From NCBI RefSeq assembly GCF_018860385.1, contig NZ_JAHKPH010000007.1:1-35594 (forward strand): DNA of 35,594 nucleotides, in the 5' to 3' direction. Shown one piece after another: positions 5,263 through 22,733 of this stretch (position 1 is its first letter; each line of letters starts with the position of its first letter). The notes below the pieces were generated by a model that saw only the letters and a program-made list of their open reading frames with translations, did not search any database and was not told where the DNA came from. A program made the translations under genes and the position numbers. Source of the DNA: Reinekea forsetii (GTDB lineage Bacteria > Pseudomonadota > Gammaproteobacteria > Pseudomonadales > Natronospirillaceae).

Positions 5263-6846
5263 TTAGTGCTCTCTAGTTTCACGGAATCTTACATCTGGGT
5301 GACGCTCTTGCGTCATTTGCAAGTTAACCATGGTCGGTGCAACGTAGGCTAGGTTATCCGAACCATCCAAAGCCAAGTTATCATAAGCTTTGTTTCTGAA
5401 TGCCTGAAGCGTTGTCGCGTTGTCGCACTCAACCCAACGAGCGGTCGCAACACTGATCGGCTCATAGACGGCATCGACCTTATACTCGGCTTTTAACCGA
5501 TGCGCGACTACATCAAACTGCAAGGTTCCCACCGCCCCAACGATAAGGTCGTTGTTTCGCAACGGACGAAACACCTGCACTGCCCCTTCTTCGGATAACT
5601 GCATTAAGCCTTTCTGCAGTTGCTTTAGCTTTAACGGGTCCTTGAGACGAATACGTCGAAACAGCTCAGGAGCAAAATTTGGAATACCAGAAAATTTTAG
5701 CTCTTCGCCTTGCGTAAAGGTGTCACCAATCTGAATGGTGCCGTGATTGTGAAGCCCGATAATATCGCCAGGATACGCCTCTTCTACTTTAGAGCGGTCG
5801 CCCGCTACAAAAGTAAGTGCATCTGAAATACGAACATCTTTACCAACGCGTACGTGGCGCATTTTCATGCCTTTTTCATATTTCCCAGATACGATGCGCA
5901 TAAACGCAACACGGTCGCGGTGATTTGGATCCATATTCGCCTGAATCTTAAATATAAAGCCTGTCAGCGCTTCTTCTTTCGACTCAACGGTTCGCGTTGT
6001 GGTTTCACGTGACATCGGCGCTGGCGCCCACTCCACCAGCCCATCAAGTATATGATCCACACCAAAGTTACCTAAGGCGGTACCAAAATATACTGGCGTA
6101 AGTTTGCCATCTAAGAACGCTTGCTTATCGAATGAGTTGCCCGCTTCAAGCAATTCAACCTGCTCACGCAGCTCTTCAACATAATCACTGATGGCGTCGT
6201 CTAGCTCTGGGTTATCAATCCCTTTAATCACACGACTGTCTTGAATGGTGTGTCCCATACCGCTTTGGTACAGCACCACTTCATCTTTTAGCAGATGATA
6301 AATGCCTTTGAATTCTTTACCCATGCCAATGGGCCATGTAATCGGTGCGCAATCCATTTTAAGAACGCTTTCAACTTCATCCATTAAATCAAACGGGTCT
6401 CGAGTATCGCGATCGAGCTTATTCATGAAGGTAACGATGGGCGTTTCACGCATGCGCGCAACATCCATGAGTTTAATAGTTCGATCTTCAACACCTTTGG
6501 CCGAGTCGATCACCATTAAACACGAGTCCACGGCCGTTAATGTACGGTACGTATCTTCAGAGAAGTCTTCATGCCCTGGTGTATCCAGTAAGTTCACCAA
6601 CTTATCGGCATACGGAAACTGCATAACTGAGGTGGTTATAGAAATACCACGCTCTTTCTCCATCTCCATCCAATCGGACTTAGCGTGCTGACCGGATTTT
6701 TTACCTTTCACGGTGCCGGCCTGCTGAATGGCTTGTCCAAATAAAAGTACTTTTTCTGTAATAGTCGTTTTACCGGCATCTGGGTGAGAGATGATAGCAA
6801 ACGTTCTTCTCTTATTGATTTCATTGATAAAATTGGCTTCAGCCAT
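5263..6846 (-). CDS. prfC: Peptide chain release factor 3, with island-encoded N-terminus
   Basis: RF3 is the translational GTPase that removes RF1/RF2 from the ribosome after peptide release. The 527-residue protein has the GTP-binding motifs HPDAGKTT (residues 21-28), DTPGHEDF and NKLDRD, then the RF3-specific domains; E. coli RF3 is 529 residues. I start it at 6846 ([14 protein letters not shown]) rather than at a longer upstream frame, because all family homology begins here. The first ~18 codons lie beyond the recombination core at 6781-6795, so they belong to the integrated island. The native start (MSTIADEVENRR) survives 15.8 kb away at 22624-22698. The new N-terminus is in frame and similar in character, so the enzyme should still work. 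A replacement promoter is proposed at 6981-7009. Confidence 0.96.
6781..6795 (-). other. Left attachment core of the prfC island
   Basis: ATCATCTCTCACCCA on the minus strand encodes part of AIISHP of RF3. It is identical to bases 22639-22653. The identity extends to TTTGC on the other side after one mismatch. The left copy is now inside the functional prfC. Confidence 0.88.
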
Positions 6847-6862
6847 GTATCTAATTTCCCAT

Positions 6863-6980: not shown

Positions 6981-7009
6981 ATTCTAGCAAAATGACTAAG
7001 CGTTATAAA
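6981..7009 (-). promoter_or_regulatory. Candidate island-borne promoter for prfC
   Basis: On the minus strand TTTATA (7004-7009) and TAGAAT (6981-6986) are 17 bases apart, just after the abiEii stop codon. It would give prfC a leader of about 130 bases. Its role as replacement promoter is inferred from the loss of the native one. Confidence 0.4.
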
Positions 7010-7924
7010 TCAAACACCCAGTACTACTTTTAGCTTTTCTAGCGCTAGCTTATGTTTATCATCTGGCATTTTGGCCAGATTAATCTGTTTCCATTTAATG
7101 ACCGGAAGATCACTTACATCGTCTAGATTAAGTAACCCCCAATCCGGCTCACGGTTTTTAAACGATAGTAAAAACGCTTTTTCATTATCGGTAAGCCCTT
7201 GGTGAATAAACTCCACCAAACGCTCTCGAACGGCTACCAGCTCTTCAAGCGGTACGTCGGTCTCAGCCATATTTGCAAATTCACCTGCATAGACGGCTGA
7301 TATATCTTTAATTTGCGGCCTTAGCAATTCGGCCATTGGCCGATTGTGACTAGCGAGATAGATAATGAGTGCTTTTCGTATCTCGTCATTTAGGCCTTCA
7401 TTTTCCAAGAGCCACTTCACATCAAATAAATCTCTTGGATGTTGCCTGTCTAATGCCGCACAGATTTTGCCAGCATAAAGATCAGCTAGTGCCACGACTG
7501 GCACCTCAGCGTAACCAAACTCTTCTTCTACAGCGGCACATACTTCCATCATCTGCGGCTCATAAACCGTGCCACGTAGCACGGGTGAGAGTTCAACCTT
7601 TATCTGCACACCATTTCGACCAACAATCAGTCTCAGCGCATCGCGCTTGGACTTATAAGCTTCTGTAAGCTCTATATCTTTAAACGCGGCCTTTAAATCC
7701 GCGCTAATCGCATCTAGCGCTTCACTAATATCCTGTAATGCTTCATCACGGCCTTTCATAGGCAGATAGACCAAATCAATATCAACAGACAAGCGCGGAA
7801 AATCTCTTACAAACAGATTGATCGCCGTACCGCCTTTGAGTGCAAAGCATTCTTGCTTAGCAACAAAAGGCAAAACCTGCATCAATAACTGCACTTGCTT
7901 GTAATAAATACTGCTTCTGTCCAT
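7010..7924 (-). CDS. AbiEii/AbiGii-family nucleotidyltransferase toxin
   Basis: This is the toxin of a type IV-classified AbiE toxin-antitoxin pair. Characterised relatives are nucleotidyltransferases that stop growth, some by adding nucleotides to tRNA, and can mediate abortive phage infection. The 304-residue protein shows the polymerase-beta-like signature GGTA (31-34) followed by RLSVDID (44-50), with the metal-binding acidic residues D48 and D50. The later motif DLYAGKICAALDRQHPRDLFDVKWLL is highly characteristic of the family. The start lies one base after the antitoxin stop, giving tight coupling with the antitoxin gene first. The arrangement resembles mosA-mosT, the maintenance pair of SXT. 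It sits at the left island end, directly before the prfC replacement promoter. Confidence 0.9.
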   Translation of the reverse strand: MDRSSIYYKQVQLLMQVLPFVAKQECFALKGGTAINLFVRDFPRLSVDIDLVYLPMKGRDEALQDISEALDAISADLKAAFKDIELTEAYKSKRDALRLIVGRNGVQIKVELSPVLRGTVYEPQMMEVCAAVEEEFGYAEVPVVALADLYAGKICAALDRQHPRDLFDVKWLLENEGLNDEIRKALIIYLASHNRPMAELLRPQIKDISAVYAGEFANMAETDVPLEELVAVRERLVEFIHQGLTDNEKAFLLSFKNREPDWGLLNLDDVSDLPVIKWKQINLAKMPDDKHKLALEKLKVVLGV

Positions 7925-7925
7925 C

Positions 7926-8771
7926 TTAGTTTTCGCTTTCCATCGCCATTTGTGACGGCACAGTGATTAAATAATCTGTATCCAGTTTTCCGCTTTTGGC
8001 GACGACGCGCTTACCAGATCCTAAGTCATAGTCCATAACATTTAGCTTGCTAAACCAAGGATAGGACTGACGTTTAGCCAACCAGAAAAACAAGCGTTTA
8101 GCTTTTACGCTCTTACAAGCTTTTAAAAGCGTATCGAGCTTTCTGGGCGATAAATTCACGAGCCCTTGCATAAGCTCGTCGGCATGCTCAAAGGTCACGC
8201 TCTCTGGTAAATCCATCAATAACTCTAATATCGCTTTTTCTGGGCATGAGAAATATACAGGCGGTAATTCTGTCTCCCACTCATGCTCTTTGATAAAAGC
8301 TTTGTCTGATAACAAACTTTCAGGCCATAACCTGCTTGTACTGTGCCCTTCAAATTCAAAAGGCAATGACAAACGTGCCATCCATGTCGGCAATTTACCT
8401 GCCGCATAGAGATGAATATGCGTTTTATTGCCCAATGACAGATACTGCGACAAACCAGATAAAGAAAGCGCTGATAACCCACCAACCACAACGGGCGGCA
8501 CACCAGCCCCCTCGTTTTGCTCCATACGCTGCATAGAGGCAACTACACCTTCCCAGCTTACAGAGCGGGAATACTGGCTATATACACCTGTTGCTAATAG
8601 CAACAAGGTTTCTGTTTTTACGGCATTATCTATGGCATGAGCGCTCAAGCCCTGCTCGGCAAGCCACTTTTTAGTGGCTAACATGCCATAAGGTAAAAGT
8701 GCTTTAAGCGACTGCTTGTATGCACCTTTTACGCCGTCGTCCTGTAAAGTTGTGCTATTCACTAAGCGCAC
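7926..8771 (-). CDS. AbiEi-family antitoxin / transcriptional repressor
   Basis: AbiEi antitoxins neutralise AbiEii and repress their own operon. The 281-residue product starts with a winged-helix-like region (LLPYGMLATKKWLAEQGLSAHAIDNAVKTETLLLLATGVYSQ), which fits the AbiEi N-terminal DNA-binding domain. The following region, with GGLSALSLSGLSQYLSLGNKTHIHLY, is typical of the longer AbiEi subfamily with a large C-terminal domain. The likely start is GTG at 8771, preceded by AAAGGT. Two palindromes at 8836-8860 and 8909-8935 are probable operators, consistent with known AbiEi autoregulation through paired inverted repeats. The gene is intact and precedes its toxin. Confidence 0.88.
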   Translation of the reverse strand: MRLVNSTTLQDDGVKGAYKQSLKALLPYGMLATKKWLAEQGLSAHAIDNAVKTETLLLLATGVYSQYSRSVSWEGVVASMQRMEQNEGAGVPPVVVGGLSALSLSGLSQYLSLGNKTHIHLYAAGKLPTWMARLSLPFEFEGHSTSRLWPESLLSDKAFIKEHEWETELPPVYFSCPEKAILELLMDLPESVTFEHADELMQGLVNLSPRKLDTLLKACKSVKAKRLFFWLAKRQSYPWFSKLNVMDYDLGSGKRVVAKSGKLDTDYLITVPSQMAMESEN

Positions 8772-8835
8772 TGACCTTTCTATGGTTTTTGACTATCCAG
8801 CCACTAAAACATCCAAATAGTTTATAATTTGGAGT

Positions 8836-8860
8836 ATTTGCGGCGAAAAACGCCGTAAAT
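8836..8860. promoter_or_regulatory. Operator-like palindrome 1 upstream of abiEi
   Basis: ATTTGCGGCG / CGCCGTAAAT with a 5-base AAAAA spacer forms a 10-bp near-perfect palindrome 65 bases upstream of the antitoxin start. It shares the core CGGCG-N5-CGCCGTA with the palindrome at 8909-8935. AbiEi proteins are known to bind paired inverted repeats in their promoter. Confidence 0.65.
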
Positions 8861-8908
8861 ATCAATAAGCATAAACTAACACAATCCAAGTGAGTTTACC
8901 AATGTTAT

Positions 8909-8935
8909 TTTATCCGGCGTTAATCGCCGTATAAA
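8909..8935. promoter_or_regulatory. Operator-like palindrome 2 upstream of abiEi
   Basis: TTTATCCGGCG / CGCCGTATAAA around TTAAT forms an 11-bp palindrome with one mismatch. Its centre lies 74 bases from the centre of palindrome 1, about seven helical turns, so two bound repressors could sit on the same face of the DNA. Confidence 0.65.
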
Positions 8936-9111
8936 TAACAAAAAACAAACCGATAGGTTTAATTAAAAGCTTTTTTAAGTACTGAAAGTACCGAAAACCA
9001 GCCTTATTCAAACTTTTGGGGCATAAGCCTGACGACAGCGGAGACAGTACCAGCGAAGCATGAACGGTATAGGCCGACAGGCCTCTTAAGTCCCAAAAGC
9101 GCGCAAGCGTT

Positions 9112-9136
9112 GCCCCTGCCCTATAAGGGCAAGGGC
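9112..9136 (-). terminator. Strong hairpin after ardA
   Basis: GCCCCTGCCCT (9112-9122) and AGGGCAAGGGC (9126-9136) pair with one mismatch across a 3-base loop, eight bases beyond the ardA stop. The T-tract after it on the minus strand is poor. It may be a terminator or an mRNA-end stabiliser. The rest of 8936-9111 has no gene I can support. Confidence 0.5.
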
Positions 9137-9144
9137 TCCTTGTG

Positions 9145-9603
9145 TTAGTGGTTCCAGAATATATGCACTTCTCTGTAACATGTCTCAATAGTAAAAATAT
9201 CCCCGCTTAACTCCATATCACGACCCATTTTTTCATAGTCGATATAGTAAGCAAGGCTTTCGGGGATCTCGGTGGTATCTGTTGTTAGCTCTTCAGCAAA
9301 ATCGGCCAAATCTGAAAAATGCCCTAATAGCTCAGCGGCTAGTTCGCCATACTCTGAAATAAAGCATGCTATTTCATGCGCTGACTCAAACCCTTCATAC
9401 TCAGAAACATTATAAGAACCATACCCCTCATAATCATGAATTGCCCATTCTTCAGCATCTTCTTCAGGACTAGAAGCAAGCATTTCATTAACCTGCTCTT
9501 GAATGTCATCAACATCTAAACACGCATCAATCCAAACACCGTGAAGTTTGCCGTTGTTGTAGGCGGCTAAACACGCCACATAAATTCTAATTTCTTCGCT
9601 CAT
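9145..9603 (-). CDS. ardA: ArdA-family antirestriction protein
   Basis: ArdA is a DNA mimic. Its acidic elongated dimer imitates bent B-DNA and blocks type I restriction enzymes, protecting an incoming mobile element. The 152-residue protein is very acidic. It shows the family blocks IYVACLAAYNNGKLHGVWIDA (residues 6-26), EWAIHDYEGYG (around 52-62) and a C-terminal half with the typical LAYYIDYEKMGRDM segment. A run of Asp/Glu residues is spread along the surface-forming helices. The gene stands alone on the minus strand with an unusually structured upstream region (9634-9811). Its presence in an island that carries a restriction-like operon is notable, since ArdA acts mainly on type I enzymes and would not be expected to block this one. 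Confidence 0.9.
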   Translation of the reverse strand: MSEEIRIYVACLAAYNNGKLHGVWIDACLDVDDIQEQVNEMLASSPEEDAEEWAIHDYEGYGSYNVSEYEGFESAHEIACFISEYGELAAELLGHFSDLADFAEELTTDTTEIPESLAYYIDYEKMGRDMELSGDIFTIETCYREVHIFWNH

Positions 9604-10123
9604 GTCTTTGTCTCCTATATCTTAAAAACACATCCCCTTTTGGGGTTGAAAACCCCAGAAAAAGGAGCGAGGAGACGAGCGTAAGATCACATGTTTTGGC
9701 GCAATCCAGACAGGGGGAACCACCCTGCCTGCACAAGCGTAAGCGCGGAAGGCTGGGGGATGTCTTGATGGAGACAAGTTATGTGATATTTTTACGTATA
9801 CCCAAAAGGGGAAAATTAAACCAAAACAAACGAACACGAAGTGTTCCCGCATTACACTCAAAGCCAAGCGCAGCGAAAGTACACAAAACAAAGCCGTTGT
9901 GCATTGCACTGCCAGCATCTTTAAATCAATCAGTACCACCTTGTTCTAAGACCATAAACAGCACTGCCTTTTAGCCTCACCACTAGCGCAAAGCGCCTAT
10001 AGACCAGCAAGCGTAAAGCTTCTCCATTCCATTGCGACCGAAGGTGCAGATCAACCCCTTCGCACAAACACGCGGCCTCACAAAGGCCGTGGCAGTCACG
10101 GCCTCCAAAAACAGGAGGTAACA
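9604..10123. other. 520-bp gene-free regulatory region with nested inverted repeats
   Basis: No frame here looks coding; the open frames lack recognisable proteins or ribosome-binding sites. Nested inverted repeats span 9634-9811. CCCCTTTTGGG (9634-9644) pairs with CCCAAAAGGGG (9801-9811), and ATCACAT (9686-9692) with ATGTGAT (9781-9787). A separate tight hairpin TGGGGTT/AACCCCA is at 9641-9657. The left side would form the ardA leader; the right side leads to the plus-strand small gene at 10124. It may hold divergent promoters, a structured RNA or a transfer-related site. Confidence 0.45.
10084..10104 (+). promoter_or_regulatory. Hairpin next to the ribosome-binding site of the 59-residue gene
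   Basis: AGGCCGTG and CACGGCCT form a perfect 8-bp palindrome around GCAGT. It ends 9 bases before the AGGAGG ribosome-binding site of the gene at 10124. It could be an operator or a leader hairpin that affects translation. Confidence 0.5.
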
Positions 10124-10303
10124 ATGAGATTGATTACAAGATTTGAATTAGCAGCGAAAAACACAACAGAGCTTCGCAGCCTTTACAAAGAAGTGTTTAA
10201 CGAGATGGTAAGAAGCGAGCCTAGAACACTGGAACGTGTGAACACTTTGGCTTTACTGGAAAATATTGAACTTGAGATTGCGTCAAGGGCGCCCTGCCCT
10301 TGA
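10124..10303 (+). CDS. Small 59-residue protein of unknown function
   Basis: This short plus-strand gene starts with ATG four bases after a near-ideal AGGAGGT ribosome-binding site. The predicted protein (MRLITRFELAAKNTTELRSL...) is mostly alpha-helical by composition, with regularly spaced leucines and alternating charges, and could be a single helical hairpin. I recognise no named domain. Its gene has its own leader hairpin (10084-10104), and its stop codon is embedded in a Rho-independent terminator (10284-10312), so it looks like a compact, independently expressed unit. It is the only plus-strand gene of the island and points against the defence operon. The strong signals make it very likely to be translated. 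Confidence 0.7.
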   Translation: MRLITRFELAAKNTTELRSLYKEVFNEMVRSEPRTLERVNTLALLENIELEIASRAPCP

Positions 10304-10312
10304 TGTGTTTTT
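10284..10312 (+). terminator. Rho-independent terminator overlapping the stop codon of the small gene
   Basis: CAAGGGC (10284-10290) and GCCCTTG (10296-10302) pair perfectly around GCCCT. They are followed by ATGTG and six T. The TGA stop (10301-10303) falls in the right arm and the base after it, an economical arrangement. Confidence 0.8.
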
Positions 10313-10338
10313 TAAGAAAGTCTTTTTAGTACAATAGA

Positions 10339-12192
10339 TCAGTCAGCTTTAGTAGATTGGTGAGCTGCAATGAATTCTTTATGGAATACTTTTGACTGCT
10401 CCAACAACTCACGATAGGTCTTGACAAAGACTTGCCCAGTTTTTCCGTAAGTTTCCTCCTTAGATCGTGTCATTCGGTCATCAGCCCTACTACCACCAAT
10501 AACGTAACAAACAACATTAGAAAAACCGCTACTCGTCGCATATTTGTCTTTTAAGAATGCCTGATAGTGAAATGCTTGCTCTATGGCAGACTCATCTACT
10601 TTATAATTACTTCGCTTAATCTCAATTACATACAAAACATTACCCAGAGCATTACTACATAAAAAATCAATCCGTCGATCTTTTTCATCCAGTTTATCAT
10701 CAGGGTAATTCTCTTTAAGAAGTTTGGAGTATGTCACCTCATCGCTAAATTCAAGTATTCTAGGATCTAGCAACCAAGAAAACTGCTTTAAAAAGTTATG
10801 CAAGGTAGGAACTTCTTTTGTATCGGCCTCCAACAACTCTTCAAACTTGTTAATAACCTCAACACGAGCGATCGCTAGAGAGCTCATTTCCCTATTTTCG
10901 GTTATTTTCCATTGATTCAAAAGCTCTACGATCTTAGGTAACTCCTTGGAAGAAACAGTGTCAGCCAGCTGAGAAGCATAATCTTTGAACGCTTGATTAT
11001 CAAAGTGATCCATAACACCGTGAATCATCTGAGTTGATTGCTCTATATCAATCGAAGGGTCACTGAGAATTGGATTTATAATCTTGTTAGCCAGTTCTTT
11101 TTCAATGGGGAATAAATCATTCTTCCAAGCTTTGACATCTTTTCCTCCATGCGTAGATACGACACTTTCTTTTTGTTCGTTACGCTTTTTCCTCCAATCA
11201 CCGCCGACCTTTCTAACAATTGACTGAAGGTAATCTCTCAACTCTCTAGCCCTGTCATTCTCCCAAATCAAGGAATGACGATCTGTACTAATAATATCCT
11301 CATCAAAATCATCAATAAAATCGATACATAAATAACCAGTCATATATGTATGAACAAAATCATTGTCCCTTGCCCCATAAAACTCAGCCTCATTAACAAT
11401 TTTACCTCGTGATATTAGGTAGATACCTCGCATTGAGTTATCTTTTAAGGGCTTATCGGGAGTAATTATCTCCCCGGAAACCTGCTTCCAATGGGCATAT
11501 TCAGTACCAAACTCTTCACTCGGCAACGTCCACTTATATTCAGTTTTTAATGCCGAAAACTTCATTTCATTAGTGAACGTTATTTTTTCACGTGAATTTA
11601 AAGATATGGTAGTTTCCATCTCATCAAAAATAGTAAACTTTTGAGACAGACTTTTTACGATCGCATCAAAATCAAAAGATCCTTTTCGTTTCACTTTTTT
11701 CAACCAAAGCTCCGTTCCATTCTGTTCGGACACTGGTTTATTAAAAGCAGTAATTTCTGGATGATACTCGCCCTTCAACCTTTCAATTTCATTTAGGTCC
11801 ATAGAGAACCTATTTTCTAATCCATCTTTTACAGTTTTTACAACTATCTGTGTGCATACCCCAAAAACTGATAGCTTCCCTAAGCCCTTTTTCCCTATGA
11901 CATCTCTCTTTTTTACAGGAGTAACTTGAGTCTCAGTATCCTCTCTTCTATTCCGCCCGACCATTAAATACTTTTCATTTATTTCATCAAAACTCATTCC
12001 ATGGCCGTCGTCTCTTATATAGATTTCCTTTCCGCTTTGGTTGTCAGTAAGTTCAATATTAACTACTTCCGCATCAGCATCGTACGAATTAGAAATTAGC
12101 TCAGAGAGAACGCTTGGGAGCTGAGAGTACAAAGATACTCCAAGATGTTTAATAGTTAGCGGGTCATATCGTAACGTTAACTGCTTTGTCAT
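10339..12192 (-). CDS. GHKL (Hsp90/MutL-type) ATPase with C-terminal nuclease-like domain
   Basis: This is the last gene of the island's defence operon. The N-terminal ~200 residues are a GHKL ATPase: N-box ELISNSYDADA (31-41), DDGHGM (61-66) and GKKGLGKLS (100-108). The middle (about 200-450) is an uncharacterised linker with a transducer-like region. The C-terminal ~150 residues contain D509 (RRIDF) and E524-x-K526 (VIEIKRSN). This is the PD-(D/E)XK nuclease pattern and resembles DUF4263 (Shedu) proteins. A plausible job is ATP-gated clamping on DNA or a phage component, followed by cleavage; that is inference. AAGGAATT lies before the ATG. It starts 48 bases after the AIPR gene, a wider gap than elsewhere in the operon, so it may be a later addition. 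Confidence 0.82.
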   Translation of the reverse strand: MTKQLTLRYDPLTIKHLGVSLYSQLPSVLSELISNSYDADAEVVNIELTDNQSGKEIYIRDDGHGMSFDEINEKYLMVGRNRREDTETQVTPVKKRDVIGKKGLGKLSVFGVCTQIVVKTVKDGLENRFSMDLNEIERLKGEYHPEITAFNKPVSEQNGTELWLKKVKRKGSFDFDAIVKSLSQKFTIFDEMETTISLNSREKITFTNEMKFSALKTEYKWTLPSEEFGTEYAHWKQVSGEIITPDKPLKDNSMRGIYLISRGKIVNEAEFYGARDNDFVHTYMTGYLCIDFIDDFDEDIISTDRHSLIWENDRARELRDYLQSIVRKVGGDWRKKRNEQKESVVSTHGGKDVKAWKNDLFPIEKELANKIINPILSDPSIDIEQSTQMIHGVMDHFDNQAFKDYASQLADTVSSKELPKIVELLNQWKITENREMSSLAIARVEVINKFEELLEADTKEVPTLHNFLKQFSWLLDPRILEFSDEVTYSKLLKENYPDDKLDEKDRRIDFLCSNALGNVLYVIEIKRSNYKVDESAIEQAFHYQAFLKDKYATSSGFSNVVCYVIGGSRADDRMTRSKEETYGKTGQVFVKTYRELLEQSKVFHKEFIAAHQSTKAD

Positions 12193-12240
12193 TTTTTATA
12201 ATTCCTTTTGAACAGCTTTAAATTTCGGTTAATCCGTCTA

Positions 12241-14304
12241 TTAAACGGCAATTCCTTCGTCTTTTACTCGCTCAAGCAATTCAACAAGTACAAGACATTG
12301 TTTCTCAGAAGGTAATTTGCTTTGCATCCGAGTAGCCGCATTAACGATACCTATCTCTTTAGGCGTTAATAATCCCCTCGAACGGCATTGCTGTAATAAA
12401 GTAGCCCACTTAGTTGCAGGTATTTCCATGACCCGCTTCTGGGCCTCAATACCATCGTCCATTTTCTGAACTTTGCGAGCTTGCTTTTTCTCGGTCTGTA
12501 TAGCTTCTTTTGAAACAAGGCTATCTTTGAAGCCCTGTGGCAATAATTCATCCAGCCTAGCTAATTGCTCTCTTAGTCTTTGCCAGCATCCTTCCTTTTT
12601 ACACCACTCTGTGACGTTAGATATGCCCTGCTGAGGCAAAGTAATCTCGTCATGAACGAGCTCGGAAGTAACCTCTAACGCTCTTTCTAAATCACTTGAT
12701 ATAAACTGCGTATTCCAAATACGCATAAAGTCTAAAGACTTGTCTTGCGTTGAAGCATAATTCCCTAATAGAGCTAACGTATAAGCAACAACATTTGCTC
12801 TGTAACCACCGTTATACCAAGGCTGAGCTGAAACCAGCTTTTCTGTTTTTCTAAACAGGATGGCGCGGGCGATAGCTCGTTTATAATAGAACTCACTAAA
12901 GCCTTCAGATGATTTTTCCCATTCAGAGCCAATTCGCTTCGCATACTGAGCAAAGTTTTTCTGCGCCCCAAGGTTAACGAACCTTGGGTTCTCATCCCAG
13001 ACGTTCTCAAACTTAGCGAGGTCGGTTTTAGTGAACATCTGTGGCTTGGGGTTTTCTGCCTGGAATTTTTTCTTTTCACCTTGAGTAAGCTTACTTTGCG
13101 CGTCAGCATATTGACCACGAGCACGCTCATAAAACCATTTTGTCTCTCGTAGCGCCCCTTGTTGAGCAGGAGCCCATATACGCCTTGAGAATTCTTCCAT
13201 ACGAATATGAAACGGATGGTTTGAAAAGAAATCAGCAGCATTTACTCTGTTCTGAGTGTTTGCGTATTCAGAAATACGCGGCACTACCGTTTCACTTTGC
13301 TCGCTATCAATAACTGATAGCTTCATCTGAACAAAAATTCCTTCCAAGGAGGCCTTATCTTTACGACTTGTATGAAACAGAGAAGCTGTAGTTTGACCAC
13401 CGTTCACTATCTGTAGATCTTTCATGCGAACCACTTCAAGCCCGGTATCTCCTTTCCTGACTTCTACTTCCTGAGCAGTGGCAGTAATACCATTGTTATA
13501 GGCAAAGAACATTTGCGGCTCATTGATAATGGTACTTCTGATACCCTTATTAACATTCCCTCGGGCCTGCAAAAAACATCGAACGTTTTGCTCTAACAAG
13601 CGAGCACCATATTTCTCATACATTGATGACAAAATAGTTGCTGGAATTACTATCAGATAAGACTTGTAAGTATCTGATCCTAAATGTGCAGGCAAACACG
13701 AAATCCCTGCCCCATAAGTTTCAGGAAAATTGATATCAAGAATTTCTTTATGGCCTCGGGAGCTTTGTTGGCGCTGTAACCTCGAAACATCCCAAATATG
13801 ATATGAAGCTGGAACTCCAGAAATTTCGCCATCTTCAATAGCGCTAACTCGACCACTCAAAGCTCGCTCAGAAAAGAGATAAAAATTCACCTTTCGAATT
13901 GCACGTCCTCGATCGTAAATTTGCCTTGATAGCCCATACTCAGGGGCTGTCTCTTCGAGATCTTTAAACAATTCCTTGCTTTTACTTGCTTCAAAAAACT
14001 TCGCAACTCGCTTAAAAGCGCTATCTACGTCAGTCCCCGTAAGAGAAGCTAACTCTTCTCTACAATCGAAATCAGCAATGAAAAGATCTAGAGCCCCCTC
14101 ATCATTAAACCAGTAGCCATCAACCCGCATTCCTCTTTGCGCGCGATAGTGACAAAGCTCAAACCCCTCCAAAAATCCAGTATCCATCAACTCATCAGCG
14201 ACGGTTTCTACAAACTGTGACAATTGAAAGCTACTACTGGCTTCCGCCCCAGCTAACAAGTCCTGTTTGAAATCATGAAAAAATTCCTGGATGGTTTGTT
14301 CCAT
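12241..14304 (-). CDS. AIPR-family abortive infection phage resistance protein
   Basis: AIPR proteins (Pfam AIPR) were named for their link to abortive phage infection; their biochemical activity is not settled. The 687-residue product shows the family core around residues 250-330: EQNVRCFLQARGNVNKGIRSTI, then FFAYNNGITATA and IVNGGQTTASL. The C-terminal half is helical and charged, with no motif I can name. I choose the start at 14304 because GGGGGAAG lies upstream; an in-frame start at 14376 would run far into the preceding gene. The gene begins one base after the DUF4420 gene. AIPR next to Z1, DUF4420 and MORC-like ATPase genes is the arrangement described by Iyer, Abhiman and Aravind (2008). 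Confidence 0.9.
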   Translation of the reverse strand: MEQTIQEFFHDFKQDLLAGAEASSSFQLSQFVETVADELMDTGFLEGFELCHYRAQRGMRVDGYWFNDEGALDLFIADFDCREELASLTGTDVDSAFKRVAKFFEASKSKELFKDLEETAPEYGLSRQIYDRGRAIRKVNFYLFSERALSGRVSAIEDGEISGVPASYHIWDVSRLQRQQSSRGHKEILDINFPETYGAGISCLPAHLGSDTYKSYLIVIPATILSSMYEKYGARLLEQNVRCFLQARGNVNKGIRSTIINEPQMFFAYNNGITATAQEVEVRKGDTGLEVVRMKDLQIVNGGQTTASLFHTSRKDKASLEGIFVQMKLSVIDSEQSETVVPRISEYANTQNRVNAADFFSNHPFHIRMEEFSRRIWAPAQQGALRETKWFYERARGQYADAQSKLTQGEKKKFQAENPKPQMFTKTDLAKFENVWDENPRFVNLGAQKNFAQYAKRIGSEWEKSSEGFSEFYYKRAIARAILFRKTEKLVSAQPWYNGGYRANVVAYTLALLGNYASTQDKSLDFMRIWNTQFISSDLERALEVTSELVHDEITLPQQGISNVTEWCKKEGCWQRLREQLARLDELLPQGFKDSLVSKEAIQTEKKQARKVQKMDDGIEAQKRVMEIPATKWATLLQQCRSRGLLTPKEIGIVNAATRMQSKLPSEKQCLVLVELLERVKDEGIAV

Positions 14305-14305
14305 T

Positions 14306-15274
14306 TTACTTCCCCCATACATCCTTATCTGCGCATAAAAAATCCCGAACGCTTTCCAACTTAATTTCATAGCCAACTCTTGTTAGCCCTGTATTTAATT
14401 CAGATCTAACAATCTTTGGAAAATCACTTTCGACACGATATGTCTGCTCTTCAACGACAATAAATTTAGGCTTATCGTAAGCAAGTATTTGCACATAACC
14501 AGCTTTAGCCAGTTTTGTATCAAACATCTCTATAGCTTCTGCCTCAGTTAGCTTTCCCTCAACTGCGTTTACTAACTCGTTCAAAGAAATTGATGCTTTT
14601 GATTCAGGCATATCAACCAATCGAAAAACCTTAAGAAAAAGGCTGTTACTTAAACTTTCGAGCTGATCTTCGGAAGATATTTTAACTGCATTTCTCTCGC
14701 GGCCTGATAATGACTTAACTTCTACGGCCGTATCGGAAAATATAAAATCCTGATGAGATGTTTCAGGCCCCTGCCATGCTTCTAATGCATCCAGCTCAGT
14801 ATTCATTTCACCTAGCATTTGTTGCAGAAACTTAAGCTCACTGAAAAAACCCCTTACTTCTTCGGCACTAAGCACCCGGCCTTTCTTCCCAGCCATGAAT
14901 GCTTTCCAGCGTTTTATTTGGGAAAGAGCAACAGACAATCCAACCACTGGATCTGATACTTCAGCAAGTTCATGGATCAATGTTTCGCATAAGCTATAAA
15001 AGAGATCTTGATCGACATGCTTCTCAAGAACCAAAATCAGGCCCTGATTTCCCGTCGTGCTTAGCAATCTGTAATCAATCTTTATTCCATGAATAGGCAC
15101 CATGTTTTTTTGAAAGATCTCTGCTCCATCTTCACTCATTTCATAAATAAATACACAGTGACCGCTAGAGTCCTTTCCCCAGTACAATGGAAGATGTTTG
15201 CTGATTTTTATCTGTCTTACACTGAGATCTTCAGCGGGCGTCTTAATATCATTCCATGGATTTGTTTTACTCAT
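14306..15274 (-). CDS. DUF4420 PD-(D/E)XK nuclease-family protein
   Basis: The 322-residue protein matches the DUF4420 family, a branch of the PD-(D/E)XK restriction-endonuclease fold. The N-terminus NPWNDIKTPAEDLSVRQI (5-22) is very typical. Candidate catalytic residues are E146 (GFFSELKFL), D176 (HQDFIF) and E185-V-K187 (AVEVKS), the full acidic-acidic-lysine set, so it should be an active nuclease. It is the most likely effector of DNA cleavage in this operon. The start at 15274, third of three consecutive ATGs, is set by AGGA five bases upstream; it overlaps the Z1 gene by 8 bases. The acidic tail of Z1 overlaps this start, showing tight coupling. Confidence 0.88.
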   Translation of the reverse strand: MSKTNPWNDIKTPAEDLSVRQIKISKHLPLYWGKDSSGHCVFIYEMSEDGAEIFQKNMVPIHGIKIDYRLLSTTGNQGLILVLEKHVDQDLFYSLCETLIHELAEVSDPVVGLSVALSQIKRWKAFMAGKKGRVLSAEEVRGFFSELKFLQQMLGEMNTELDALEAWQGPETSHQDFIFSDTAVEVKSLSGRERNAVKISSEDQLESLSNSLFLKVFRLVDMPESKASISLNELVNAVEGKLTEAEAIEMFDTKLAKAGYVQILAYDKPKFIVVEEQTYRVESDFPKIVRSELNTGLTRVGYEIKLESVRDFLCADKDVWGK

Positions 15275-17936
15275 CATCATCCTCATCTTCTGGTGCATCA
15301 AATATTCCACCATGCAACTGATTAACCCAAACAGTATTCGCTACAACACTGACACCTTCTGAGTAATCCCCAGGAGGAAAACTGATTCCGAATGCAGGGA
15401 CAACTTCCTTGGAACCTTCCCCTTCACCTAAGTTCAATGAGTGCACCATTAGAAGTGGCCTTTTCCTGATAGTTCGATAATGGAAATCAGACGGCTTCTT
15501 ACCACTTTCAGCGGCCAAATCTTGTGCAACTTGTTTCTGAGAATCGCTCAGACCTAACTTTTCGTCTCCCCTGCTAGCCACACGGTCTTTCGTCAAGCGC
15601 CAATACCCACCTTCTTTAACCTCAGCGCTTTTTCTTAACTGTGGGCCAAGAACTCGTTCAGCACTGTCCTCACCTTTTTTCATGGAAATGAGAAGTACAT
15701 CGGCTGATGAAAACAAGGCAGAAATTGATTTTATATATGTTACTACTGCTGACCTTCTCTCCAGAAAACTCTCGTGAACACGGAATGAATTAAGGAACTC
15801 AGCAATCTGGTTTAGATCGACGTCTCTTACGATCCAACCTTTATCTGTATCTTCAATGCAAGAACTACCCTTGCCAAATCCCGTCTTCCAATAGCTCTTT
15901 ACTAAATCCCGATTATCGCTTGAGACACCATCGTCATTTGAAAGAATGTAGCTTTCTACAAGTCGACCACTAAAGTTATGTTTAAAAGTGCGCTTTTCCC
16001 CCGTCCTCATTTTATTGGTGGCCGTTACGAGCAGGCGATCTGGGTGACCCAAGACATATAAACCAAACTTTTTCGGACTGAGGCCATCTCTTCGCATTTG
16101 TTTTATCTGCTCTCTTAAGTCATCCGAGGACTCAGCAATATGCGAATACCAATCTATTGAATCTCTAGACAAGTGAACCCTGCACAAATCATCATAACCG
16201 GAACGATAACCGAACCAACGTCCCATCTGCATAAGCGTGTCGTACATACGAGTATTTCTGTACATGTAACTAATACATAGGCCCTCAATTGTCAGACCAC
16301 GAGAAAGACTTAAACCACCCACAGCAATAGCTGTTATACCATGACCATCTCTTTCATGTTTTTTGTAATCAAGCGGCTCATCGGACTTACTGTTAACAAC
16401 AAAAGTTCTTATGGATTCAGCAGCATCATACAACTCACGCTTTAGCTCTTCCCAAGAAACATCAGCATCCCCAAAATCAGCTTCAAAAACCTGTTTCACC
16501 TGATCCATATTTTCATTTTTTTGAGAGACTGAATCCGGCATCAAATAGTTTGCCTTGATGGATTCCCTCAGTTTTTTGAGATATACGCTGATGTGTGTGC
16601 GGACTAATGTCTGAACATCCACAAACCTCGAAACGTTTACAAGCATTGAGCAATGCTTTTCATCTTGCCCCCTAATCTTTCTGATCGCTTTCACTACAAT
16701 AAATTGCCGTATAGCCCTGTAAAGCGATGGAGGAAGATCTAGCACGTCAAAATCTTTTTTATGAACGAAAGGAATATAGTTCTCTGCGTCATCAATTGTT
16801 TCTAAAATTCGATCAGAACTATCATCATCCAAGAAAACCCTATCAGGGCCAAAATATGTTGTCGGAGCATCGAGACAATAAATAAAGTCCCGAGGAAAGA
16901 GCTCTTCTCGAAGTTGTTCATCACCATATGCATCAGGATTAATGAAAATATTAGCGAATGGCGTTGCCGTGTATCCAACATAACAAGACTTATCAAACAA
17001 ACTCAAAATCTCTCTAATTCTTCTGTTTGTCTGTGTCGGATCGTTGTCTTCTTTTTTGGTATTGATCGATGCGTTATCAGCTTCATCATCAATCATAAGC
17101 ATGGGAACATCTTTAATTTTTCCATGACCTTTAGAGTTCAGTTCATCCAACCAGCGGTGGAGAGACTTTAACGTTGAAACATTTTTCTTGATAACGAGTA
17201 TCACCGGCTTACTAAAGTCGTTGATACTCCATCCGCTGTGATCAGCTGTCTTCTTATTAAAATCTGCATATATGTTAGTCAGAGTAGCCGGGTGAGGATA
17301 ATCGTCATGACCAACTCCAACAATTTTCCACTTATCTTCAACGCGTGTCCTACCAACAAAACCCTCATCAACCCGTTCTTGCGTCTGTTTACGGAGATTA
17401 TTATGAACACCAGCGATTACAATAATGAACTTGTATCCAGCATCAGCCGCTTTTGCCACCAATCCCATGTAATTCGCTGTTTTACCCGATTGCACGTGAC
17501 CAATAACTAATCCACGTCTATCCCAAACACCGGGCGATGTCGGATCTTGAAGATGACCAAGTATTTTCGTGCCTACATCACTCAAAGACTGAACTACAGT
17601 AGGTGACCATTTCTCTTTCTTAAGATGCTTTTCATATGCGTCAGAATAAAACCATTCAATATCTTTACGCTTATACACCCACTCTTTGTCATGAGTAGCT
17701 TCCGGGTCGACAAGTGAAACACCCAATCCCATTCTGGAATCTATTTCATAGTAAGCTTCCTTTGCACAACTTATCGCATCACCTTCATCAAGGCCTAACA
17801 CCTTTGCTAGATCTACTGCCAAGGCATCAACTTCTTCGCGTGTTGGAACATACTCTGACCAACGCGTTTTTGCAGCGGTGATCAAGGAAACAGTAAAATT
17901 CTTTTTTGCCTCCAACTTCTCTTTCTCATTCCCCAT
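15267..17936 (-). CDS. Z1-domain superfamily II helicase
   Basis: This 889-residue protein combines a superfamily II helicase core with the Z1 domain. Visible motifs are the Walker A GHVQSGKT (146-153), Walker B DDEAD (283-287), motif III-like TATPFAN (323-329) and, further on, GGLSLSRGLTIEG and QMGRWFGYR, which correspond to motifs V and VI. It should use ATP to translocate on or remodel DNA, probably supplying the motor for the neighbouring nuclease. The last residues form an acidic tail (DAPEDEDDDE). The ATG overlaps the end of the MORC-like gene by 11 bases and the stop overlaps the DUF4420 gene. All key ATPase residues are present, so it is likely functional. Confidence 0.92.
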   Translation of the reverse strand: MGNEKEKLEAKKNFTVSLITAAKTRWSEYVPTREEVDALAVDLAKVLGLDEGDAISCAKEAYYEIDSRMGLGVSLVDPEATHDKEWVYKRKDIEWFYSDAYEKHLKKEKWSPTVVQSLSDVGTKILGHLQDPTSPGVWDRRGLVIGHVQSGKTANYMGLVAKAADAGYKFIIVIAGVHNNLRKQTQERVDEGFVGRTRVEDKWKIVGVGHDDYPHPATLTNIYADFNKKTADHSGWSINDFSKPVILVIKKNVSTLKSLHRWLDELNSKGHGKIKDVPMLMIDDEADNASINTKKEDNDPTQTNRRIREILSLFDKSCYVGYTATPFANIFINPDAYGDEQLREELFPRDFIYCLDAPTTYFGPDRVFLDDDSSDRILETIDDAENYIPFVHKKDFDVLDLPPSLYRAIRQFIVVKAIRKIRGQDEKHCSMLVNVSRFVDVQTLVRTHISVYLKKLRESIKANYLMPDSVSQKNENMDQVKQVFEADFGDADVSWEELKRELYDAAESIRTFVVNSKSDEPLDYKKHERDGHGITAIAVGGLSLSRGLTIEGLCISYMYRNTRMYDTLMQMGRWFGYRSGYDDLCRVHLSRDSIDWYSHIAESSDDLREQIKQMRRDGLSPKKFGLYVLGHPDRLLVTATNKMRTGEKRTFKHNFSGRLVESYILSNDDGVSSDNRDLVKSYWKTGFGKGSSCIEDTDKGWIVRDVDLNQIAEFLNSFRVHESFLERRSAVVTYIKSISALFSSADVLLISMKKGEDSAERVLGPQLRKSAEVKEGGYWRLTKDRVASRGDEKLGLSDSQKQVAQDLAAESGKKPSDFHYRTIRKRPLLMVHSLNLGEGEGSKEVVPAFGISFPPGDYSEGVSVVANTVWVNQLHGGIFDAPEDEDDDE

Positions 17937-19410
17937 TTTTTATCCCTTCAAAATATTGTTCTACCAGCTCCTTGTGAGCATCAAACATGCGAACAGAGTC
18001 AACAACACTCCGAAACATATCGATATTAATCTCACCAGAACCAAATAAAGAATTTCTAAGCTCTTCCAGCTTTTGTGAAACATTTTGTTTCTCTATTGAA
18101 AATTGATCAACGCTTCTTGGCGCTGAAGAATAATCCGAGTAGATCATCTCTACTGGAATTGCTGCTGAAACGGCTTCCAGATATGAATGTAAAATTGAAG
18201 ACTGCTGGTCTGAAAATCCCTCTTTTAAGCTTTGCAAAAGAGGATGAGATAAATTCAACTCAAACCGAACTCGATCTTTATCGCCATAACGTTCCCAAAT
18301 TGGCTCAGGTGAATCCTGAAAAAGCTTCTGCCCTCTACCTCGATGAATTCTGGTACTTGTTCCAGTGACCTTAGATATTATCTGCCGAAGTCTTTCTCTA
18401 ACTTCATGAGGCGGTCTTGCTCTCGATTTTTTAATATCAATTGTCCAGCTTTCGTCTAGAGCATTTGGAAAATCTATCTGAACCCTGGCAAGCTTAGTAG
18501 CCTCGCCCTTGGGTACCAATCTGAACCAATCTCCCCAAGCCATAAGCCTACCATTCCGATAGATATATGCTCCTTGGTTGGAGATAAAACTGCTTCGATC
18601 TTCGTAGAAATCATATACCTTAGCCGTAAGCTTGCTATGATGCGGTAGGATGTATGGCTGTATAACGACTTCCATACCATCAACGCGGACTATTTCCTCT
18701 GGTAGCACCTGTGTCGCTCTAATTTTCCGACAGAAAGGATCGAATGCATCTACGGGTTTACCATTTATACGAATACTAAATTTAGGATGATGTTTAACCT
18801 CACCAGCCAGAAACCTATGAAAAACCAGAGACAAATGACGATCGACGAGATCCAGTTTTTCATAAACAATTTCATCTCGCTTGCTACCGTATTGGTCTTC
18901 AAACAAACGATCTAACTTAGTCCAAACAACCGCTGTTCCAGTCTCACCCAGCTGATCTAAATACGGTATTTTTTTGATATCCTCATCATCAAGAATTGAG
19001 AGACACCATTCATCTCTCTTGCTTACATGATCCAGATCCCATTCAGCCCCACAAACTATTGAATTTATCGAGCTAACGACCGTCAAATTTCTACATTGTG
19101 AAAATGAAGCTGTTTTCAAGCCCAAACCAAATCGGCCCAGATCATTTGGTTCTCTAGCCTGCTTGGGGTTAGCTGAACCATGTTTCATTGCCAGTAGAAG
19201 TTCGTCCTCTGTCATTCCACTTCCATTATCTATGATAACCAGCGTCGGCTTTTCGCAAGTCAAATCGCAGTAGACATCGACTTCAGTCGCTCCAGCCGTA
19301 ATGCTATTATCTATTATGTCCGCAACAGCAGTCGCCAAAGAATACCCAAGGTCTCTCATAGACTCAGACAATGACGAGGCACTTGGTGGCAATGTATATT
19401 CTCTAGCCAT
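17926..19410 (-). CDS. MORC-like GHKL ATPase
   Basis: The N-terminal domain is a GHKL ATPase of the prokaryotic MORC type, related to MutL and Hsp90. Motifs are the N-box VADIIDNSITAGA (29-41), DNGSGM (61-66) and GRFGLGLKTAS (92-102). ATP binding in this fold normally drives N-terminal dimerisation, forming a clamp on DNA. The middle part has an S5-like transducer region (RPPHEVRERLRQI). The C-terminal ~120 residues are helical and probably mediate contacts. I choose the ATG at 19410 (495 residues) over a GTG at 19419; the stop codon of vsr overlaps it as TAATG. It is encoded between vsr and the Z1 helicase, as in the modification-linked MORC operons described by Iyer and colleagues. Confidence 0.92.
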   Translation of the reverse strand: MAREYTLPPSASSLSESMRDLGYSLATAVADIIDNSITAGATEVDVYCDLTCEKPTLVIIDNGSGMTEDELLLAMKHGSANPKQAREPNDLGRFGLGLKTASFSQCRNLTVVSSINSIVCGAEWDLDHVSKRDEWCLSILDDEDIKKIPYLDQLGETGTAVVWTKLDRLFEDQYGSKRDEIVYEKLDLVDRHLSLVFHRFLAGEVKHHPKFSIRINGKPVDAFDPFCRKIRATQVLPEEIVRVDGMEVVIQPYILPHHSKLTAKVYDFYEDRSSFISNQGAYIYRNGRLMAWGDWFRLVPKGEATKLARVQIDFPNALDESWTIDIKKSRARPPHEVRERLRQIISKVTGTSTRIHRGRGQKLFQDSPEPIWERYGDKDRVRFELNLSHPLLQSLKEGFSDQQSSILHSYLEAVSAAIPVEMIYSDYSSAPRSVDQFSIEKQNVSQKLEELRNSLFGSGEINIDMFRSVVDSVRMFDAHKELVEQYFEGIKNGE

Positions 19411-19829
19411 TAACTCCACTCCCTTAAAAACTTAAGAATCCGCTCTACGACCTTGCCCGGAGCTTCTTTTAACTCACATTCCCAAGCCGTAAAAACGTGC
19501 CACCCCTCAGCAACTAACGCCCTGTTCTTTTCTTTGTCTCGCTGAACAGTTCGCCCAAATTTTTCTTTCCAAAACTCGATTCTTGTTTTGGGCATGTACG
19601 CATATTTACAACCTTGATGTCGGTGCCAAAAACATCCATTCACAAAGATTGCTGTCTTATAACGAGGTAAAACAATATCTGGTCGCCCTGGCAGTTTCTT
19701 TTCATGCAAACGAAACCTTAAGCCTGACTTGTGTAAAAGAGAGCGAAGAGTAATTTCAGGCTTAGTATCCTTGCCCTTAATTCTCGACATATTCCAGCTT
19801 CGTTTTTCCCTCGTTAAAATATCAGTCAT
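19410..19829 (-). CDS. vsr: Very short patch repair endonuclease (Vsr)
   Basis: Vsr nicks DNA 5' of the T in T:G mismatches produced by deamination of 5-methylcytosine, protecting the sites of its partner methylase. The 139-residue protein has LTREKRSWNMSRIKGKDTKPEI (6-27), the catalytic aspartate in PGRPDIVLP, and the strongly conserved VNGCFWHRHQGC block with metal- and catalysis-linked His/Cys residues. FWKEKFGRTVQRD and GWHVFTAWECELK follow as in E. coli Vsr. The ATG at 19829 shares one base with the dcm stop (TGATG); a TTG three bases earlier is less likely. Direct linkage to a cytosine methylase is the norm. In this operon it might also take part in cleavage of foreign DNA, but nothing in the sequence proves it. 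Confidence 0.95.
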   Translation of the reverse strand: MTDILTREKRSWNMSRIKGKDTKPEITLRSLLHKSGLRFRLHEKKLPGRPDIVLPRYKTAIFVNGCFWHRHQGCKYAYMPKTRIEFWKEKFGRTVQRDKEKNRALVAEGWHVFTAWECELKEAPGKVVERILKFLREWS

Positions 19830-21364
19830 CAATCACCCGGTATTTTATCTAGTATTTCTTTGACGACTTCGGCTATTTGAACGGCTAAATAAGGTGGAAC
19901 TGCGTTACCCACTTGGTGATACTGAGCAGTTCGCGGCCCTTCAAAATGGTAATTATCTGGGAAGGTTTGCAGCCTAGCAGCTTCCCGTACAGTTAAACTT
20001 CGACATTGTGATGGATCATAATGAATGAAATAGTGACCATCCTTAGAGATATGAGACGTGATGGTCGTGCTAAAACGAGACTTCACCTGAACTCTAAAGC
20101 GATCTGAGAACATTTTGCCCTCACAGCCATCTTTGACGTTCTTATGAGCAGGAAGAAGCTCTTCAGGAAAGTCTCTTAATTTAGGCGAGATATCCAATGC
20201 GCTTGCATGAGCCGAAGCATACAGATAGCGATGCAAGTCACTTACCATATGAGATCTTGCCTCATGACATGTCGCCACTTTGAGACGGTCGTCGAAATAC
20301 CATGATTTCATGACTCGGGGAGGTTTGTATTTCGTGGAGGATTTGTCCATCGGAGTATTGCGTATAGTTGCTAGCGCACTCTTAATCTCCTTTTTGATGC
20401 TGGCATCTTCCTTCTTTTTAGAGGGTATCCAAGATGTTGCACTGACTGACAACAATTCTTCTTTCCACTCATCATAATCATCTTTTCGCCTTGAAATACT
20501 GCTTCTAATTTTCGGCATACTGCTGATTATTTGCTCCACACTTGGTGGCTCAGACTTTTCAAGCGTTCCTGGCACTACGTCTATGTCGGCTCTAATTCCC
20601 AAGATAAATATTCTGTGTCGAGCTTGTGGTACACCATATTCTTCAGCTCTGACAACGAAGGATTTTGGCTCAATCTCTTCGACGACTTCACCAGACTGGG
20701 ACAAGGAGTAAAGCTTGTATTTCAAACCATTTTTATTCTTTTCAATAGCTCTACGAGGGCTGCGAAGGTCTTCTACAATCTTATCGACGACGGACTCACC
20801 GTTGACTTTAGCTGAAAGCAGGCCCTTCACATTTTCCATGACGAAAACTGGAGGGCGATGATCAATGATAATTTTGAGATATTCTTTGTATAAGAAGTGC
20901 CGTTCGTCTTCCTCAAACTCAGGATTGTTCATCATCCTCGAACGACCAACCAAGGAATAAGCCTGACAAGGTGGCCCACCAATCAAGGCCCATTTCTTTG
21001 AAGAATTCAGTCTGTCACTAATAATCTGCTGAACTTCATTATGTGTTTCTTCACCTAGTGAAATTTTCAGAGCGGTAGCTTTTGCATGCTCCCAATTAGT
21101 ACTATTTCTCTCAATGAGCTCTTCTTTATCAATACGCCCTTCCAAGTAGGCGTAATAGTCATCAGGGACATCCTGCCTTTTGAATGACTTGTAGAAATGC
21201 CTCAGAAGTAATGTCTGATGCGCAAATTCATCTCTTTCAATAGATGCGACCGACTTAAATACTCTTGAATCATTTGAATTGTATAGTTCAGAAAACCCTT
21301 CGCCCAAGCCACCCGGCCCCGCGAATAGATCTATTATTGGATATGTCACATCCTTTTTTCTCAT
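19829..21364 (-). CDS. DNA (cytosine-5-)-methyltransferase, Dcm-like
   Basis: This enzyme transfers a methyl group from S-adenosylmethionine to C5 of cytosine at a specific DNA sequence. The 511-residue protein has motif I DLFAGPGGLGEGF (12-24), catalytic motif IV GGPPCQAYS (129-137, nucleophile Cys133), motif VI ENVKG (177-181), motif VIII QARHR (247-251) and motif X QVGNAVPP (484-491). A long region between VIII and X is the target recognition domain. An insertion of about 40 residues (60-105) between motifs I and IV makes it longer than a typical ~420-residue enzyme. Its target sequence cannot be read from the protein. The ATG overlaps the stop of the HTH gene by four bases. It should mark self DNA for the downstream MORC/Z1/nuclease genes. 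Confidence 0.95.
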   Translation of the reverse strand: MRKKDVTYPIIDLFAGPGGLGEGFSELYNSNDSRVFKSVASIERDEFAHQTLLLRHFYKSFKRQDVPDDYYAYLEGRIDKEELIERNSTNWEHAKATALKISLGEETHNEVQQIISDRLNSSKKWALIGGPPCQAYSLVGRSRMMNNPEFEEDERHFLYKEYLKIIIDHRPPVFVMENVKGLLSAKVNGESVVDKIVEDLRSPRRAIEKNKNGLKYKLYSLSQSGEVVEEIEPKSFVVRAEEYGVPQARHRIFILGIRADIDVVPGTLEKSEPPSVEQIISSMPKIRSSISRRKDDYDEWKEELLSVSATSWIPSKKKEDASIKKEIKSALATIRNTPMDKSSTKYKPPRVMKSWYFDDRLKVATCHEARSHMVSDLHRYLYASAHASALDISPKLRDFPEELLPAHKNVKDGCEGKMFSDRFRVQVKSRFSTTITSHISKDGHYFIHYDPSQCRSLTVREAARLQTFPDNYHFEGPRTAQYHQVGNAVPPYLAVQIAEVVKEILDKIPGD

Positions 21365-21546
21365 TTGTTACCAGCTTCACTTTTCTTTTGAGTTATCCAA
21401 CGCTCAATATCTTCGCGCTTAAACCGCCAACTGCCACCTACTTTGAATCCAGGCAACTTACCTTCAGAGGCCAGTCGATATGCGGTTTTCTCTGCCAACT
21501 TGAGATAGTCGGCGACCTCTTTCAAGGTTAGAATTTCATCAGTCAT
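21361..21546 (-). CDS. AlpA/excisionase-type helix-turn-helix protein
   Basis: This 61-residue protein is a single MerR-like winged helix of the excisionase/AlpA (HTH_17) type: LTLKEVADYLKLAEKTAYRLASEGKLPGFKVGGSWRF covers residues 6-42 in two stretches, followed by KREDIERWI. Such proteins either direct phage-like excision as recombination directionality factors or regulate transcription. Here it lies between the integrase and the cytosine methylase, overlapping the first by 8 bases and the second by 4 (ATGA). It may therefore control excision, the methylase operon, or both. If the integrase is dead, a regulatory role in the defence operon would be the reason for keeping it. Confidence 0.85.
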   Translation of the reverse strand: MTDEILTLKEVADYLKLAEKTAYRLASEGKLPGFKVGGSWRFKREDIERWITQKKSEAGNK

Positions 21547-22417
21547 AGTTTATCCACCCATGAGACTTTAGGGAGCATATGAGAAAATTGAGGAGGCCGC
21601 AAGGAATTAGCGGTACTAAAGTATAGTTTTCACCAGTCCAAACCTTGGCTTCAAAATCAAAGTCACTCTTACGGGCTTGGCGCAATTCACAATTGCGGCA
21701 TCCATACAGTAAACAGAGCTTCACGAAGAGTTTGTTCTTAGGGGTAATGCGGGAGTTATTGACGGCAAGCCAAAGCATCTTTAACTCTTCATCTGTCAAA
21801 CAGCGATCCGTCAAACGCTTCTGAATATTCAAGTCACCTTTGGCGTAAATATCAGAGAGCGGATTAGTGGGTAAAAGCTTGCGCTTTACCCCAAAGCGAT
21901 AAAGCTGTTTGGCGTTAACCAGAATACGCTCGCCAATAGCTGGCTTGGTATTAGCGAGAGCTTCTAAAATTTCCAGCCATGCGTGTAACGTGATCTTCTC
22001 GGCTGGTAATTTACCCAGCTTCGGAAACACATGAATTTCGAAGCTGCGCTTAACTTCGTGGTGGCCTTTCTTGTTTTTGATGCAGTAGGCTTCGTACCAT
22101 AGGTCAAATAGCCCTGTAAGGCTTTCAGCAGCGATGATCTTCTGCTTTTCCAGCAGTCGTACTGTCTTGGGATCATGCCCCTGCTCTAGCTGTTTCTTGA
22201 GCCGCAGCGTTTCCTTTCTGGCTTCTTTGAGGGACATGAGTGGATATGAGCCGATATCTACTCTGCCGCCCTTGCCGACATACTGGTATCGCATGGTGAA
22301 GGTGATCTTGCCCTTGGGCGATAGTCTGGCGCTCAGTCCATCCCGATCAGTCTTCTCAATTGTCTTGTCACTGAGTTTCTTGTTGTTGGCTTTAAGCCAT
22401 GTTTCAGTCAGTGCCAC
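21539..22417 (-). pseudogene. int: Tyrosine recombinase (P4/SXT-type integrase), C-terminally truncated
   Basis: The protein begins with the DUF4102 arm-binding domain typical of P4-like integrases (KTDRDGLSARLSPKGKITF, 22-40; VDIGSYPLMSLKEAR, 53-67). The core-binding domain follows, then the start of the catalytic domain with the first catalytic arginine in GCRNCELRQARKSDFD (R241). After about residue 271 the family pattern stops. There is no His-x-x-Arg and no nucleophilic tyrosine, and only 292 residues exist where about 400 are usual. Another reading frame across the last ~55 bases stays open into the start of the AlpA gene (ending KVSWVDKL), so a deletion fusing int to older sequence is likely. 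The start is GTG at 22417, with AAGGA upstream. It is very probably inactive. Confidence 0.85.
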
Positions 22418-22448
22418 CTTTCAGTCCTTAGCCCGTATTACGGAGCTG

Positions 22449-22507
22449 TTTGTACAAAATTTCCAAAGGGGGTTTGTACAAGAAAATTTGTATGAGAATT
22501 TGTACAA
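22449..22507. repeat. TTTGTACAA repeats at the right island end
   Basis: TTTGTACAA occurs at 22449-22457, 22473-22481 and 22499-22507, with a degenerate copy TTTGTATGA at 22487-22495. They lie between the integrase start and the right core. Together with two copies near the left core they form a six-member set, best explained as integrase arm sites or regulator sites. They also overlap the likely int promoter zone. Confidence 0.6.
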
Positions 22508-22623
22508 ATTTCTTCTGACTTAGGGTGTCACAGAGTGACTTGGAAGTGTGATAGGACAAACCAGGACACGTTATAACTTTTTGTTTTTACTAAAGTTTGT
22601 GTCTTTTCTTGTCGTGGGATGTC

Positions 22624-22698
22624 TTAGGTAACTTTATTTGGGTGAGAGATGATGGCAAAGGTACGCCGATTTTCAACTTCGTCAGCAATGGTGGACAT
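22624..22698 (-). pseudogene. Displaced native 5' end of prfC
   Basis: From the ATG at 22698 the minus strand encodes [20 protein letters not shown], the expected start of RF3. It then runs into island sequence (NKVT) and a TAA stop. This is the original prfC start, separated from its gene by the island. Its TATAAT promoter box is still upstream at 22734-22739, so a 24-codon peptide may be made and transcription may continue into int. Confidence 0.9.
22639..22653 (-). other. Right attachment core of the prfC island
   Basis: This copy of ATCATCTCTCACCCA on the minus strand is identical to 6781-6795. It is followed on the island side by AAATAAAG rather than the GATGCC of intact prfC, which sets the right border. 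Confidence 0.88.
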
Positions 22699-22733
22699 GG
22701 TTATCTCTATAAATAAATAAAATCTGGGCGCGC

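Follow-up and report, generated by a model that had tools for sequence, protein, structure and literature searches.

What tells self from foreign DNA to a restriction enzyme at the end of a defence operon when it seems to have no DNA methyltransferase (MTase) of its own? The question is raised by eight minus-strand genes of Reinekea forsetii, found in a window (the whole stretch of DNA analysed here) of 35,594 nt, positions 1–35,594 of contig NZ_JAHKPH010000007.1 in assembly GCF_018860385.1. The initial annotation had read these genes as one operon, an observation confirmed here; each of them has Pfam, NCBIfam or PADLOC matches (Table 1). Judged from sequence relationships, the eighth gene, RE8, seems to be a captured type II restriction enzyme lacking a protecting enzyme of its own and dependent on the operon's only C5-cytosine MTase (C5 MTase).

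RE8 and its presumed partner

RE8 is homologous over its full length to BbrUII/HgiDII family restriction enzymes (NF050001; 313.5 bits, residues 13–614) and also matches PADLOC type II restriction enzyme models. What had been described as a second GHKL ATPase with a nuclease-like tail is a fusion to a PD-(D/E)XK nuclease with both active sites, related to those enzymes; R507, D509, E524 and K526, together with the GHKL residues, show no variation across eight sequences (the window's own among them). The distinct subtype proposed at the same time is an arrangement seen in one genome only.

A C5 MTase of the same class of motif is encoded next to each of the five nearest full-length RE8 relatives, and the operon C5 MTase is the sole PF00145 match in the genome, which is incomplete. 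For these two reasons, an active RE8 would probably need the operon MTase. In the mechanism we propose, RE8 would have lost its own protecting MTase and would rely on the single C5 enzyme of the operon, so that one 5-methylcytosine mark would identify self for both RE8 and the rest of the operon.

The best PADLOC model for this MTase is DrmMII (1e-96), and its presumed target-recognition region carries the motif HEARSHMVSDLHRY. M.HgiDII recognises GTCGAC, according to the excerpted text of PMC5867850; that site should not be assumed for the window, since the group-A motif is absent from the MTases that neighbour the group-B relatives of RE8, which are more distant. The label RE8pair in our MTase trees also takes in locus L151, whose neighbour is a distant GHKL gene only; the MTase of L151 has the motif and that of L154 lacks it.

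RE8 is rare: 10 of 398 genomes of the phylum match at E <= 1e-10 and 2 of 369 genomes of the class at E <= 1e-40, the genome itself included in each count. A further 70 plasmid records, 4 phage records and 7 viral contigs match, mostly distantly, and neighbourhoods were examined for five of the plasmid records and one of the phage records. The iterated RE8 profile merged with MORC proteins, and loci were relabelled using a C-terminal RE8 profile. Two of these loci deserve mention. Escherichia phage PhiR44_1 (L187, with P2-type genes) has a ParaMORC3 26.6% identical to RE8, with a convergent Dcm gene alongside, a distant pair of the RE8 type, and viral contig L158 has, at 8899–12084, a C5 MTase, a GHKL protein resembling the N-terminal two thirds of RE8 with a different C-terminal part, and Vsr.

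RE8 might instead be a Shedu-like nuclease of the VcSduA/paraMORC3 kind, free of any MTase and triggered by phage structures. VcSduA has the same GHKL ATPase–PD-(D/E)XK layout, with a DUF4263 domain, and is presented in the excerpted passages of PMC12137116 as an independent system; the C-terminal part of RE8 has a weak match to the Shedu domain SduA_C (19.4 bits), and no MTase is labelled near the distant relatives L148 and L149, the latter lying at a contig start. We consider this explanation unlikely, since the SduA_C score is under the gathering cut-off of 27, NF050001 spans nearly all of RE8, and the close full-length relatives, unlike VcSduA, all pair with a C5 MTase.

The slot behind AIPR

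RE8 could also, though less probably, lie beside the operon by chance, without a functional tie. No other examined locus has it behind AIPR, so the adjacency could be fortuitous; RE8 is, moreover, separated from AIPR by a 48-base gap and has its own ribosome site. What lies behind AIPR varies among close relatives. Five have a gene of about 200–270 aa there (L028:4633-5415, L050:15717-16448 and homologues in L057, L059 and L065), which matches PADLOC PDC-S36 in the scanned pair L028 and L050 and has no Pfam match in L028, L050 or L065. L053 and L060 have an 887-aa SMC/AAA_13-like gene (PDC-S06 in L053, the one scanned), and L056 a GHKL/SduA-like gene; neither L056 nor L106 was counted as an instance of RE8 behind AIPR. 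The position looks like an accessory-defence slot. Against mere chance stand the consistent pairing of the nearest RE8 relatives with a C5 MTase of one motif class, and the probable need of an active RE8 for the sole C5 MTase found.

Several further points weigh against RE8 depending on the operon MTase. Its lone occurrence behind AIPR and the other candidate defence genes in that slot in close relatives are among them, as is its score under the BbrUII/HgiDII cut-off of 550. Its predicted structure is of moderate quality (pLDDT 69), and the 50 Foldseek matches listed are all of Hsp90 type. A common motif is no proof of common specificity, and the MTase-tree clade under test was named after the first tree had been seen. 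The GHKL protein of L158, 39% identical over RE8 residues 4–413 and without a match to RE8 in its C-terminal part, adjoins a C5 MTase lacking the motif and a Vsr gene. Two plasmid-collection matches, H8 and H9 (35% identity over 64% of RE8), fall outside the examined neighbourhoods, and elsewhere the genome encodes two PF02384-family N6 methyltransferases. RE8 could be inactive, or could work without an MTase as VcSduA does.

Genes 1–7 and known systems

The first seven genes are a known, uncharacterised and little studied kind of operon. Its small regulator scores 88.6 bits against NF047737 MAD1 (cut-off 80), and a homologue precedes the MTase gene in L053, L054 and L073. Vsr matches the solved Vsr 1cw0 with 111 bits and has an uncommon active-site pair, VN. 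MORC, whose start is likely an ATG a few codons inside the GTG, has MORC4, MORC3 and MutL as relatives in the PDB. It carries the motifs DNS37-39, DNGSGM64-69 and GRFGLGLK95-102, and GAYIYRNGRLM at about 283–293, of which G283, Y285, Y287, R288, R291 and L292 are invariant across 12 sequences and the final Met replaces an aliphatic residue of the known motif. The PF10593 protein has DTLMQMGRWFG at 566–576, its key motif residues being invariant in 13 sequences, and D189, E198 and K200 of the DUF4420 nuclease are invariant in 12 (window included in both). Likely starts are at ~15274 for DUF4420 and ~14304 for AIPR. No solved relative of AIPR was found in the PDB by sequence or predicted fold; YNNG and VNGGQTT are conserved motifs of the protein (12241–14304), whose strand pattern near residues 73–102 recalls a degenerate restriction endonuclease fold.

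Table 1. Features of the operon and of the island that carries it
Feature	Coordinates	Strand	Remarks
Att-like repeat, left edge	6781..6801	-	21-base repeat; rebuilt prfC
AbiEi/AbiEii toxin-antitoxin pair	7010..8771	-	AbiEi 7926-8771 and AbiEii 7010-7924; PF17194/PF11459, PF08843
ArdA antirestriction protein	9145..9603	-	PF07275, 137.7 bits; same island
Gene 8, RE8	10339..12192	-	617 aa; GHKL ATPase with C-terminal PD-(D/E)XK nuclease; BbrUII/HgiDII-related type II restriction enzyme
Gene 7, AIPR protein	12241..14376	-	711 aa; MzaE-like; PF10592 346.6 bits, PF22879 147 bits
Gene 6, DUF4420 PD-(D/E)XK nuclease	14306..15313	-	335 aa; MzaD-like; PF14390 208 bits
Gene 5, PF10593 (Z1) protein	15267..17936	-	PF10593 261 bits
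Gene 4, MORC GHKL ATPase	17926..19419	-	497 aa from GTG; MzaB-like; PF13589 111.8 bits
Gene 3, Vsr T:G mismatch endonuclease	19410..19832	-	140 aa; TIGR00632 145.9 bits (cut-off 97.85)
Gene 2, C5-cytosine DNA MTase	19829..21364	-	511 aa; PF00145 166.5 bits; long DrmMII-like family
Gene 1, HTH_17/MAD1-type small DNA-binding regulator	21361..21546	-	61 aa; PF12728 69.7 bits
Tyrosine integrase remnant	21539..22417	-	292 aa; PF13356, PF22022, partial PF00589
Att-like repeat, right edge	22639..22659	-	21-base repeat; old prfC fragment

Genes 4–7 are homologous to MzaB–E of the mzaABCDE system (NF041932–NF041935), which was reportedly described by Gao et al. in 2020. A true MZA locus, mzaBCDE plus extras, is nevertheless hardly credible: MzaB–E are the best PADLOC/NCBIfam defence models for these genes, yet all four scores are far under the curated equivalog cut-offs (313.8 against 850 bits for MzaB, NF041932; 518.1 against 1500 for MzaC; 129 against 420 for MzaD; 363.1 against 1050 for MzaE). 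The scanned operon proteins include no mzaA product, termed a sigma factor in the excerpted text of PMC9523054, and the operon adds an MTase, Vsr and RE8. The same text gives ~20% identity between mzaBCDE and a putative system type II (Miller et al. 2022, PMC9523054), for which its excerpts describe no extra restriction enzyme such as RE8. As far as the excerpted descriptions go, the closest operon kind likewise has no BbrUII/HgiDII-type enzyme behind AIPR, and its second GHKL protein, in a subset of helicase-less operons, is paraMORC1 rather than RE8.

Of the nine proteins scanned, the MTase alone is similar to a component of DISARM (DrmMII), and other drm genes were not found; no other mad genes of MADS were among the PADLOC matches listed for the nine (for the MTase, the best 25 of 55 families). 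CglI (PMC5737866) is another of the closest known systems. To our knowledge, it has no MORC, DUF4420 or AIPR. We recognised no description of the present gene combination in a search of open-licence papers. Overall, the interpretation as a modification-linked defence operon given in the initial annotation is borne out in part.

An island in prfC

The operon is cargo of an island of ~15.9 kb (6781–22659) that interrupts prfC at its 5′ end; prfC is also the insertion site of SXT/R391 elements. A functional prfC, rebuilt with a new start supplied by the island, runs from ~6846 to 5263, while a remnant of the former 5′ end is left at ~22639–22699 beside cmoA, at the right edge. The att-like repeats differ by one mismatch (24/27 identical over a longer match). 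In relatives, most clearly L194, the native prfC start is contiguous with cmoA, and prfC was present in all 19 genomes searched (own included). Palindromic repeats of the TTTGTACAAA type at both ends (6863–6886 and 22449–22511) are possibly integrase or excisionase binding sites.

The integrase remnant, which overlaps the regulator gene by 8 bases, keeps its arm-binding and core domains and lacks most of the catalytic domain, so the island is probably unable to move by itself. This truncation and the uncommon Vsr pair would fit a decaying island with inactive genes, which we hold to be very unlikely, since all eight operon reading frames are uninterrupted, with the expected motifs. The ArdA gene shares the island with the restriction operon, and the operon of L028, too, has a homologue of ArdA close by. 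Opposite the operon end lies a plus-strand reading frame of 59 aa (10124–10303) without a Pfam match, followed by a terminator-like hairpin of 13 pairs (10279–10307).

What would be new in this otherwise known kind of operon is a captured type II enzyme that shares the only C5 MTase found. Two weapons of different kinds may then recognise self by a single chemical mark.
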